This document shows, piece by piece, positions 43,221 to 47,206 of a stretch of 47,206 nucleotides of DNA. A program made the translations under genes and the position numbers. Each line of letters starts with the position of its first letter. Position 1 is the first letter of the stretch. The notes under the pieces were generated by a model. It did no database searches, was not told where the DNA came from, and was given only the letters and a program-made list of their open reading frames with translations. The DNA lies in NCBI GenBank assembly GCA_937124585.1, contig CAKZKT010000137.1, positions 1 to 47,206 of the forward strand, written 5' to 3'. Source of the DNA: an uncultured Anaerolineae bacterium. Lineage in GTDB: Bacteria > Chloroflexota > Anaerolineae > CG2-30-64-16.

Positions 43221-44879
43221 TTACCTCAAAGACAAAGGCAAGTAAAGACGTGGCGGAAGTCGCGCTACAGAGTATGCGCCGGTGCGCACCGCATTCCGCC
43301 GAAACATCGGCCAGTCGGCCAGCGTGTTGGTCGAACCGGGCAAATCCCAGACGAACAGTTTACTGTTGCTGGCGACCAGCTCCAGCTTGCCATCGCCATC
43401 AATATCGCCCACGGCCGGATTGTTGCGGAGCGTGCCGTTCGTGATGTAGATAGGTTTTGTGCTGGGCGAACTGGACGCCGTGATCTGTTGCCCGTTGCCA
43501 TCTACTATGGCGACCCCCCATCCTTCGCTCAGAAAGATCTCCATGTCCCGATTGCCATCGTAATCTGCCAGCACGAAGCTGGCAGGGACTTCGAAACTGG
43601 TCAGGGCCTGGCCTTGCTCGGTCACCGGCCTCATGGGAAAACCGGAAACCGGTTGCCCATTGCCGCGCCAGGCGTACAACTTGCGCTCCGGATCGTAGGT
43701 GGCAACGACGACTTCGGGCTGGCCGTCGCCGTTCAGATCACCGATCGCTGGCGAGGAGGGTGTTGTTCCGCCCACCGCCTTGCCGCCTTCCCAGCCCGGC
43801 AGATCGTTGCCGTTGCGATCCCACGCGTACAGCCGAAAGCCCGCTGTCGGGTGATCGGGGCTGTTTGTGTAGTAGAACGTGCCCGTACCCACGATGATAT
43901 CCAGCCAGCCATCGCCGTTGATGTCTGCAACCGCTGGCGAGGAACTGATGATCTCGTGGATATATTTGGGGAATCCAGGTCTGAGCCGGCCATTTCGGTC
44001 GAAGACATACAGCGAGCCGCCGCAGTAACCTGCGGTCCAGCCCGCCGGCAATCTATAAGGACAGGTCCAACCATCCCCCATGTTGCCTTCATCGGAGCCG
44101 ATGATGATCTCGGGATAGCCGTCCCGGTCCAGGTCGGCCAACGCCGGCGATGACCAGATGGTGTCGCCCAGACGGCCTCTGAGGGTCGACCATCCAAGAC
44201 GCGGATAGAGGGCGCTGTCGGGCGGGAAACCGGACACCAATGTGCCGTCGGCATGCCACGCGTACAACCGCATGTCCCACCCGCCGACGACGATCTCCAG
44301 GCGGCCATCGCCATCGAGATCGCCCAGCGCCGGCGTCCCGAAGACCGTGTCGCGGCACCCGACAGGCGGAATGGTATGATCCTCGGCCAGTTTCGGCCAG
44401 CCCGACTTTGCCTGGCCATTACGATCCAGGACGATCACGCCGCCCTGCGTGCACACATTCGAGTAGATCGTGCCCGCCCCGACCACAACCTCTGCCCAAC
44501 CATCACCGTCAATATCAGCCACAGCGGGCGACGAAGCGATTTCTTGCGCGCCGCCGCTCATCCCGAAAAGCGGCCCCAGGTCCACATCCCAAAGGAGGAC
44601 GCCATTGTTACGGACAGCGACTACATGCCCATTGTTGGTCACGGCGACGATATCGAGCAGGCCGTCTTTGTTCAGGTCCGCCAGTACAGGTGAGCCGATG
44701 TGGCAGTCCGTATCGCTGGCGGACCACGGGCACGCCTTCTTGGGCAGGTTGTAGGTCCATTTCGGAGCGACAACGCCAGTCGTTCCCTGCGGATCAACCG
44801 TTGCCTGCTGAGGAGAGAATCCTAACAAAGACAGCGCCAGAACTATCACGGCAAATAGGATCCAAGACAGAAATGTCAT
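43221..44879 (-). CDS. Secreted FG-GAP/VCBS-repeat protein
   Basis: A 552-residue exported beta-propeller protein. The N-terminal helix (about residues 3-22) is a signal or anchor. Calcium-binding FG-GAP loops recur: LADLNKDGLLDIVAV, VADIDGDGWAEVVVG, LGDLDGDGRLEIVVG, LADLDRDGYPEIIIG, VADINGDGWLDIIVG, IGDLNGDGQPEVVVA and VGDIDGDGKLELVAS, giving about seven blades. The C-terminus ends in LYLPLSLR, like its upstream neighbour. It lies 38 bases after the partial FG-GAP gene and 19 before the GT4 pair. It probably binds glycan or protein outside the cell; no catalytic motif is visible. Confidence 0.9.
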   Translation of the reverse strand: MTFLSWILFAVIVLALSLLGFSPQQATVDPQGTTGVVAPKWTYNLPKKACPWSASDTDCHIGSPVLADLNKDGLLDIVAVTNNGHVVAVRNNGVLLWDVDLGPLFGMSGGAQEIASSPAVADIDGDGWAEVVVGAGTIYSNVCTQGGVIVLDRNGQAKSGWPKLAEDHTIPPVGCRDTVFGTPALGDLDGDGRLEIVVGGWDMRLYAWHADGTLVSGFPPDSALYPRLGWSTLRGRLGDTIWSSPALADLDRDGYPEIIIGSDEGNMGDGWTCPYRLPAGWTAGYCGGSLYVFDRNGRLRPGFPKYIHEIISSSPAVADINGDGWLDIIVGTGTFYYTNSPDHPTAGFRLYAWDRNGNDLPGWEGGKAVGGTTPSSPAIGDLNGDGQPEVVVATYDPERKLYAWRGNGQPVSGFPMRPVTEQGQALTSFEVPASFVLADYDGNRDMEIFLSEGWGVAIVDGNGQQITASSSPSTKPIYITNGTLRNNPAVGDIDGDGKLELVASNSKLFVWDLPGSTNTLADWPMFRRNAVRTGAYSVARLPPRLYLPLSLR

Positions 44880-44917
44880 ATCGTCGCCTCAAACACTATT
44901 TCATCGGCGCACCGAGA

Positions 44918-47206
44918 TCACGGCTTTAGCGTCAGCGGCAGGTAGACGGGATAAATCTTCTCGGCAATGACGAGCGTTACTGGGGTATCCGATACCGGAA
45001 CGGGCGCGCCGTGCATGTCAGTTGCGGTGAATCGCAACGTCGAACGATATGTGCCCTGCGCGAGATTAGCCGGCCAGGACAGCACAATCGTCGCCGGCGT
45101 CGTGCCGGCAGCCGGCGTGAGGGTGGCGAAACTCCAGGGCGGGTCGAGCCTCGCGGCCCACTGCAGGGGGTCTTCGGTGCCCAGATTGGTTACAGCGATC
45201 TCCACAGACGTCCGGGGGACATTCGGCGCGGTCATCACCGATACGCCGTCGGTTTGCGGCGCCAGATGCGGCGACATCTTGCTGTCGGCGAACTGCAAAC
45301 GGGATGCCGTCCCATCGGGCCAGTTGAAACCGATGTTGGCCGGCAAAGACGGCGCAATGCCGCCGGTGTGCAGGCCGCCGAACTTGTCCAGGAGGAAATA
45401 GCCGCGCTCATCCTCCGTCAGCACGAAGTCGCGCGCCCAGTCTTCGCCGATATGCGGCGTATAGTTCGGCGCCAAAGGAGGCGCAGCTCCGCCGGCGTGC
45501 ACCCGACCGTAGCGATCCAGCACGTAGTAGCCGTCCCCGCTCCTGGTCAACTTGATGCGCAGCGCCAGATCGCTGCCGAAGACCGGCGTGGCCAGGCTGA
45601 GAGGCACGGCCGTTCCGCCGGTGTGGACGACGCCGAATTTGTCGAGGACGTACACACCCCGATAATCCGGCGTCACGTCAAGGCTGCGCATCCGGCCATC
45701 GCCGAAGGTCGGCGGCAGGGGTGTGATGGGCAGGGCCGCGCCGCTGGCCCAAAGCTGCCCCTTGTCGTTGATGACGTAATACTCCTCGCCATCCGGCCCC
45801 AGGGCCAGGTCAATAGCTGGCGCTGAAGCCGAGACGCTGCCGACATCCGCGGCGGTCCCGGCCCACATGACAAACCCGGTGCGATCCAACAAGAAATAGC
45901 CGCGCCTGTCAGGCGTCAACTTAAACGCGGTCGCGCGCTCCCAATAGATGTAGCCCGGCGGCGGTGCGATCGGCGTCGCAGCTCCGCCGGCGTAGATGCC
46001 GCCGCCCTGCGCCTGCGTGGTCGCGCGCAGCACATAAAAGGCCAGCGCGCTGCCGACCTTGAGCCTGCGACTGATCTTCTGGCCGAATTGCCCGCTGCCG
46101 TCGCGGGCCATCCGCCAACCGGACTCGATGTAGCCCGCTGTATCCGGCGCCGTGATGGTGAAGGTAAACGTCGCCGTCTGCTGCGGCGCGACCGTGGCGC
46201 CGGCCGGCAGATTCACCCGGCTGGGGAAATGGGCGGTCGAGCCGCTGCTGCTGAGATACGTCGAGCTGCCGCTCCAGGCCGTCGTGCCGGTGTTGCGCAC
46301 CACGACGCGCACTTCCTGCCGGCGTCCCAGGAGCAACTGATTGGGAATTGTGTGCGAAACGATCTCGGCATCGTAGGCCTGACTGACCGACAGGTTACCG
46401 CTCCGCTTCGAATCATGTTTGATCATCGGCCAGTCTGTGCGCCTGGCCGAGGCATTGGAGTCGCCAAGCTGCCACATGTAGATCGAGGCATTCCCGCCCT
46501 GTGTATTCGTGCCATCGCCGCCGGCAGCGATCAATTCCAGCTTCCCGTCGCCATCCACGTCGGCGACCGCCGGAGTGGCATTGATCGTCCATTCGGTGAA
46601 ATAGGTGTATTTGTTCTGCGGGTTGTTGCCCGAGCCATCCCAGGTCACCTGCTGCCCCTGGGCATTGACAATGATGATCTCCCAACCACTGTTGATGAAG
46701 ATCTCCAGGTGGCCGTTGGCGTTCGCGGCCGCGTCCATGTCGGCCATGATGCCAGACATGGCGAGCGCCGTGTAGTTGACGCCGGTGTAGACGCGAGGGC
46801 GCATGGGCCAGCCGGAGACGAGCGTGCCGTTGCTGCGCCACGCGTAGAGCTGGCCGCTCCAATCGCCCACGACCACCTCCAACCCGCCATCATTGTTGAT
46901 ATCGGCGATGCCCGGAGAGCCGGTGACATGGCCGGCGGTCGAGACCGGCCACCCCGGCAGGTAGTGGCCGAACCGATCGAAGGCGTGAACCTTGTAGGCC
47001 GCGCTGCCGTGGTTGTAATACGAGCCGCCGCCGATCACGATATCCAGATAGCCGTCTCCGTTCAGGTCGGCCAGGGCAGGATAGGATTCGAAGTTGGCAG
47101 CGACGTAGACGGGGAAGCCCGGGAACAGGGAGCCATCGCCCCGAAAGACATAGAGCGCGCCGCCGTCAATCGAGCCGAAGTAGGAGCTGTAGTGAGCATC
47201 CACACC
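44918..47206 (-). CDS. Large secreted FG-GAP-repeat protein with a five-fold repeat domain (5' end outside window)
   Basis: At least 762 residues. The frame is open to the window edge, so the start is missing; the apparent GTG at 47203 is only an internal Val codon. FG-GAP loops (LADLNGDGYLDIVIGG, IADINNDGGLEVVVG, VADVDGDGKLELIAA) fill the first part. A CARDB-like beta domain comes next (about residues 260-380). Then come five imperfect repeats (about 424-640) built on GY-[FY]-[VL]-LD-x-x-G-x-x-H-x-GG. A BACON-like beta-sandwich (about 650-745) follows, and the end is VYLPLTLKP. It is a probable surface adhesin or scaffold, and a tandem paralogue of the next gene. Confidence 0.85.
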   Translation of the reverse strand, partial: GVDAHYSSYFGSIDGGALYVFRGDGSLFPGFPVYVAANFESYPALADLNGDGYLDIVIGGGSYYNHGSAAYKVHAFDRFGHYLPGWPVSTAGHVTGSPGIADINNDGGLEVVVGDWSGQLYAWRSNGTLVSGWPMRPRVYTGVNYTALAMSGIMADMDAAANANGHLEIFINSGWEIIIVNAQGQQVTWDGSGNNPQNKYTYFTEWTINATPAVADVDGDGKLELIAAGGDGTNTQGGNASIYMWQLGDSNASARRTDWPMIKHDSKRSGNLSVSQAYDAEIVSHTIPNQLLLGRRQEVRVVVRNTGTTAWSGSSTYLSSSGSTAHFPSRVNLPAGATVAPQQTATFTFTITAPDTAGYIESGWRMARDGSGQFGQKISRRLKVGSALAFYVLRATTQAQGGGIYAGGAATPIAPPPGYIYWERATAFKLTPDRRGYFLLDRTGFVMWAGTAADVGSVSASAPAIDLALGPDGEEYYVINDKGQLWASGAALPITPLPPTFGDGRMRSLDVTPDYRGVYVLDKFGVVHTGGTAVPLSLATPVFGSDLALRIKLTRSGDGYYVLDRYGRVHAGGAAPPLAPNYTPHIGEDWARDFVLTEDERGYFLLDKFGGLHTGGIAPSLPANIGFNWPDGTASRLQFADSKMSPHLAPQTDGVSVMTAPNVPRTSVEIAVTNLGTEDPLQWAARLDPPWSFATLTPAAGTTPATIVLSWPANLAQGTYRSTLRFTATDMHGAPVPVSDTPVTLVIAEKIYPVYLPLTLKP

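Follow-up and report, generated by a model that had tools for sequence, protein, structure and literature searches.

Why should two adjacent FG-GAP proteins with different C-terminal regions end in nearly the same short peptide? The question is raised by one end of contig C137 of a 4.83 Mb genome, apparently of the Chloroflexota (the source genome, G000), and the window referred to here is the whole of this contig (47 206 nucleotides). Two tandem genes, designated P1 and P2, encode proteins ending in LYLPLSLR and VYLPLTLKP, and a lineage-specific export or anchoring signal had originally been predicted from this pair. The same tail was found on many unrelated secreted proteins in parts of one phylum only, as that prediction implied. 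It looks like a short, undescribed cell-surface address label that is independent of the known label-reading enzymes.

The tandem FG-GAP proteins

P1 (minus strand, 43221–44879) is a secreted FG-GAP beta-propeller protein of 552 residues, assigned by Pfam (FG-GAP_3, E = 4e-40) and by its structure model. Its N-terminus, MTFLSWILFAVIVLALSLLGFSPQQA, is a plausible signal peptide, its C-terminus reads SVARLPPRLYLPLSLR and the tail LYLPLSLR (43224–43247) abuts the stop codon at 43221–43223. P2 (minus strand, 44918–47206) was read for 762 residues; its 5′ end lies off the contig (47206) and hence its N-terminus is not visible. FG-GAP repeats, an N_BRCA1_IG-like domain, more repeats and a beta-rich end precede the C-terminus VIAEKIYPVYLPLTLKP, in which the tail VYLPLTLKP (44921–44947) abuts the stop codon at 44918–44920. 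The two tails are thus exactly where they had been reported, and the case built on them was, if anything, understated.

The FG-GAP repeats of P1 and P2 are homologous (∼42% identity over 272 residues), so that the two proteins are in part paralogues. P2 has ∼480 extra residues of other domains ahead of its tail, and the C-terminal regions do differ as had been claimed; the accompanying label 'BACON-like' found no support in the Pfam scan, which gave FG-GAP, N_BRCA1_IG and a sub-threshold CARDB match. In an AlphaFold2 model of P1, residues 516–552 (the last 37) lie outside the propeller with a predicted local distance difference test score below 50, mostly 22–30 (the alignment was shallow). The last 120 residues of P2 were modelled at low confidence, with the final strand stopping ahead of the tail. 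A third FG-GAP paralogue, 46% identical to P1 and cut by a contig end, is located at G000:C126:2-919.

Consensus and excess over chance

Tails were collected from genome stretches of seven members of the phylum, in which they end 59 of 1236 genes; many of these stretches were centred on hits and the count is therefore not a fair sample of frequency. The consensus is [R/K/Q/T]-V-[Y/F]-L-P-L-[V/I]-[V/L/M]-[R/K], located at the stop codon or within about four residues of it (54 of the 59 tails end exactly at the stop). The aromatic position is Tyr or Phe in all 59 tails and the basic position is Arg or Lys in 57. The Pro is invariant and the preceding Leu nearly so (both counted 59/59), which follows from the search pattern, since a Pro is obligatory in it and the residue before that Pro is restricted. 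Inside proteins the motif occurs only about five times in ∼477 000 residues.

A sample of the source genome chosen without regard to the motif (1.07 Mb, ∼22% of the genome, with crude gene calls) contained five genes out of 826 that end in a strict tail, compared with expectations of 0.07 on the basis of the internal rate and 0.02 when ends were shuffled (Poisson P ∼ 1e-8). By extrapolation the whole genome should hold roughly 20–25 tails. A relaxed codon pattern gave further ends in the source genome (FLPLILR, YLPLIMR, YLPMVVK, YLPLIMK, YLPLIVH and FLPIVFR), most of them borne by large, unrelated proteins. Synonymous codons vary at every tail position, and the constraint is therefore on the protein level; a DNA-level repeat or the spread of a gene was ruled out by this variation together with the unrelated carriers.

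Carrier proteins and export features

In a set widened slightly to 66 carriers, the 150 C-terminal residues left after removal of the tail fell into 54 unrelated C-terminal families. A single domain ending in this strand therefore does not account for the tail, an objection that had been anticipated when the signal was predicted. Its residues are beta-strand-like and tails often follow immunoglobulin-like domains, but an origin as the terminal strand of a common domain, or by chance resemblance, is hardly credible: apart from the number of families, some tails come directly after Pro/Thr-rich (TPT) low-complexity linkers (L090, L106 and L088), the model of P1 leaves its end unstructured and the observed number of tails is far above that expected. 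The carrier domains include CarboxypepD_reg, DUF11, SdrD_B, S8 and M4 peptidases, Kelch, FG-GAP and beta-helix. The existence of the tail, its terminal position and its independence from domain type can accordingly be stated plainly, as can its restriction to a lineage, described below.

A Sec-type signal peptide was called in 46 of the 59 tail proteins and in 325 of the 1177 other genes (P = 8e-15); several carriers without a called signal peptide have visibly miscalled starts. The motif is far commoner than expected at the ends of secreted proteins, and neither of the outcomes named in advance as refuting the signal was observed. A lipobox was found in none of 52 tail proteins with a signal peptide and in 40 of 319 other proteins with one (P = 0.003), so that the tail is not found together with a lipoprotein anchor. 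Tat export was rejected, a loose twin-arginine match being present in only three of 52 carriers.

The median length of the tail proteins is 770 residues, versus 320 for other proteins with a signal peptide. The size of these multidomain exoproteins would fit a tail that serves export, folding or turnover rather than attachment, either by offering a secreted chaperone or PDZ-type protease a place to dock or as a protective end; PDZ and tail-specific proteases typically bind hydrophobic C-termini. This is nonetheless rather improbable, since the tail is present on only a subset of the large secreted proteins (in one stretch of genome G168, seven soluble proteins of at least 400 residues are tailed and 11 are untailed), and its distribution is patchy whereas HtrA- and CtpA-type proteases are widespread in bacteria.

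Carriers also matched families that are linked to anchoring: choice-of-anchor I and Q, peptidases dependent on myxosortase, rhombosortase or the type IX secretion system, ScyF (PEP-CTERM) and MtsC (MYXO-CTERM). In other phyla, relatives of these carrier families bear known C-terminal sorting signals.

Distribution

The tail was searched for as a DNA pattern, with the reversed pattern as a control. Among 201 genomes of the phylum there was a clear excess over the control in certain families, including that of the source genome, and none in most others; in family f2 most genomes had no match. The source genome and its 40 closest relatives gave 141 matches versus 16 for the control. Individual genomes gave 56 versus one (G227), 18 versus two (G070) and 12 versus none (G166), and G168 had 25 matches, with seven strict tails within 400 kb. 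Tails are present in named Anaerolineae and Caldilineae genomes, and P1 has its best named relative in an Anaerolineae metagenome-assembled genome; these two points suggest that the phylum is Chloroflexota. No excess was seen in 47 genomes outside the phylum that were reached through FG-GAP homologues (35 matches versus 53 for the control), and homologues outside the phylum lack the tail.

Of nine P1 relatives from other genera, seven have the tail or a recognizable variant of it at their end and two do not. A relative of 63–64% identity keeps the tail position as SYLPMTIR, and the other ends read VFLPLTVQK, AYLPLIKK, SFLPVAIRGR, VYLPVCYESE, LYLPIILRSAR and LYLPIIRK. The tail is retained among these FG-GAP relatives although the preceding linker and domains change.

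Known sorting enzymes

A co-occurring processing enzyme had been suggested, and this suggestion fared poorly: the tail fits neither sortase nor exosortase, and its genes share no specific neighbour gene. Sortase (PF04203) was detected in 138 of the 201 genomes, with one copy in the source genome, and the sequence L-P-x-[V/I/T] fits the first four positions of LPXTG (LPLT in P2). A degenerate sortase signal processed by the sortases of the phylum is all the same improbable. No sortase match was obtained, even at E = 0.1, in the tail-rich G168 or in its genus-mate G200 (both 97% complete), G176, G028 and G065 encode 5–7 sortases each and have no tails, and canonical LPXTG signals with a helix and basic end coexist in G061 with a tail that has neither Gly nor helix.

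Exosortase (PF09721) was absent from nine tail genomes (G000, G168, G227, G070, G166, G061, G012, G024 and G088). Among 18 genomes, no rhombosortase (TIGR03902) was found above the family cutoff, only ordinary rhomboids, and myxosortase (NF040593, MrtX) likewise gave no match above the cutoff. Sortase, exosortase, rhombosortase and myxosortase were rejected as partners of the tail on these grounds. SprA of the type IX translocon gave no match in the 18 genomes, and the control genomes gave none either.

Three side observations concern these enzymes. The only sortase of the source genome (G000:C19:11322-11804, L057) begins with a lipobox-like segment, LLAGCS, and is located near a two-component system. 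In tail-less f2 genomes (G005, G018, G028, G046, G072, G120 and G160) sortase domains lie within very long open frames, mostly of 2490–3620 residues, which represent either giant surface proteins fused to a sortase or frames produced by read-through. Strong exosortases were found in two tail-bearing genomes (G204:C92, G204:C175 and G011:C64), in which PEP-CTERM-like sorting may coexist with the tail.

Comparison with known C-terminal signals

Sorting tags are recognized by one short, conserved C-terminal sequence that recurs, within a lineage, on many Sec-exported proteins unrelated to each other, and the tail has these properties; it behaves like a C-terminal sorting tag, yet features that define membership of the LPXTG, PEP-CTERM, MYXO-CTERM and GlyGly-CTERM systems are missing. 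LPXTG signals are likewise C-terminal on Sec-exported surface proteins, with an L-P core, a basic end and many unrelated carriers, but the tail lacks the Thr-Gly and the subsequent membrane helix and basic cluster, ends at the stop codon and occurs in sortase-less genomes. PEP-CTERM is similarly distributed in patches across a lineage and marks the C-termini of dozens of exported proteins; the tail differs from it in having no helix and in occurring without exosortase. MYXO-CTERM and GlyGly-CTERM are also phylum-restricted and some carrier families are common to them and the tail (M36 peptidases, MtsC), but the tail has no Cys, Gly-Gly motif or helix. An invariant Cys, a helix and an Arg cluster mark members of MYXO-CTERM. 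The latter signal is tripartite (PMC11980579). The type IX C-terminal domain of Bacteroidota resembles the tail in being a helix-less C-terminal signal on Sec-exported proteins. That domain is folded and comprises ∼80 residues, compared with 7–9 for the tail. No family in Pfam or NCBIfam was matched repeatedly at the tail, and no description of the motif, or of a C-terminal signal in Chloroflexi/Chloroflexota, was found in the open-access literature, most subscription papers lying outside the search.

Function of the tail

The explanation favoured here, with a probability of about 0.58, is that the tail acts as a C-terminal tag, specific to the lineage, by which exported proteins are sorted or attached, and that a dedicated envelope factor reads it after Sec export. 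Judging from their N-termini, the carriers would exit via Sec, using a standard signal for signal peptidase I. Outside the folded domains the tail would persist as a flexible, hydrophobic peptide. An enzyme or receptor in the envelope, dedicated to this role and particular to the lineage, would recognize it and keep the protein on the cell surface or within the sheath or matrix. The proposal does not require the tail to be cleaved or covalently linked. Since the known readers do not fit and the neighbouring genes gave no candidate, it is inferred either that the envelope contains an undescribed reader or that the tail itself binds directly. The narrower claim of a phylum-specific sorting system, in which a helix-less tag of 7–9 residues is recognized by an undescribed reader unrelated to sortase, exosortase, rhombosortase and myxosortase, is put forward tentatively.

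Direct binding would need no reader: a hydrophobic strand with a basic end could be self-sufficient, sticking to membrane, S-layer, sheath or polysaccharide or pairing with other tails. The tail is indeed short, hydrophobic, terminal and flexible, no partner gene lies near the tail genes and the known anchoring enzymes are absent from rich tail genomes. Such a sticky peptide is unlikely, however, given the invariant L-P with an aromatic residue two positions ahead of the Pro, where mere hydrophobicity would accept many substitutes, and given the strict position at the stop codon.

Several points weigh against a dedicated sorting tag. No reader was found, and the neighbourhoods of tail genes in the seven genomes have no gene family specifically in common, only common regulators and transporters. 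A crude, home-made predictor was used to call the signal peptides, and in the motif-blind sample only one of the five tail genes had one, several of the five having miscalled or missing N-termini. The tail, in addition, lacks a membrane helix and falls well short of known sorting signals in length. Finally, the untailed secreted control set includes anchor families as well (choice-of-anchor O), and the kinship of carriers with families bearing known anchors is therefore only suggestive of a sorting tag.

If the lineage is Chloroflexota, as it appears to be, its members are prominent in many filamentous communities such as sludge and mats, and to our knowledge hardly anything is known of how their proteins are attached to the surface. 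If a tag is indeed present on dozens of proteins per genome, it would give an immediate list of surface or matrix proteins and a handle on the reading machinery, and it might be of use as a short genetic tag in surface display. It is an example of a sorting-type signal without a membrane helix in sortase-less genomes.

At L066 and L067 (540–580 kb of G168:C5), several large choice-of-anchor O proteins without a tail (three of them in the control set) adjoin tailed neighbours, a possible natural control for the contribution of the tail.
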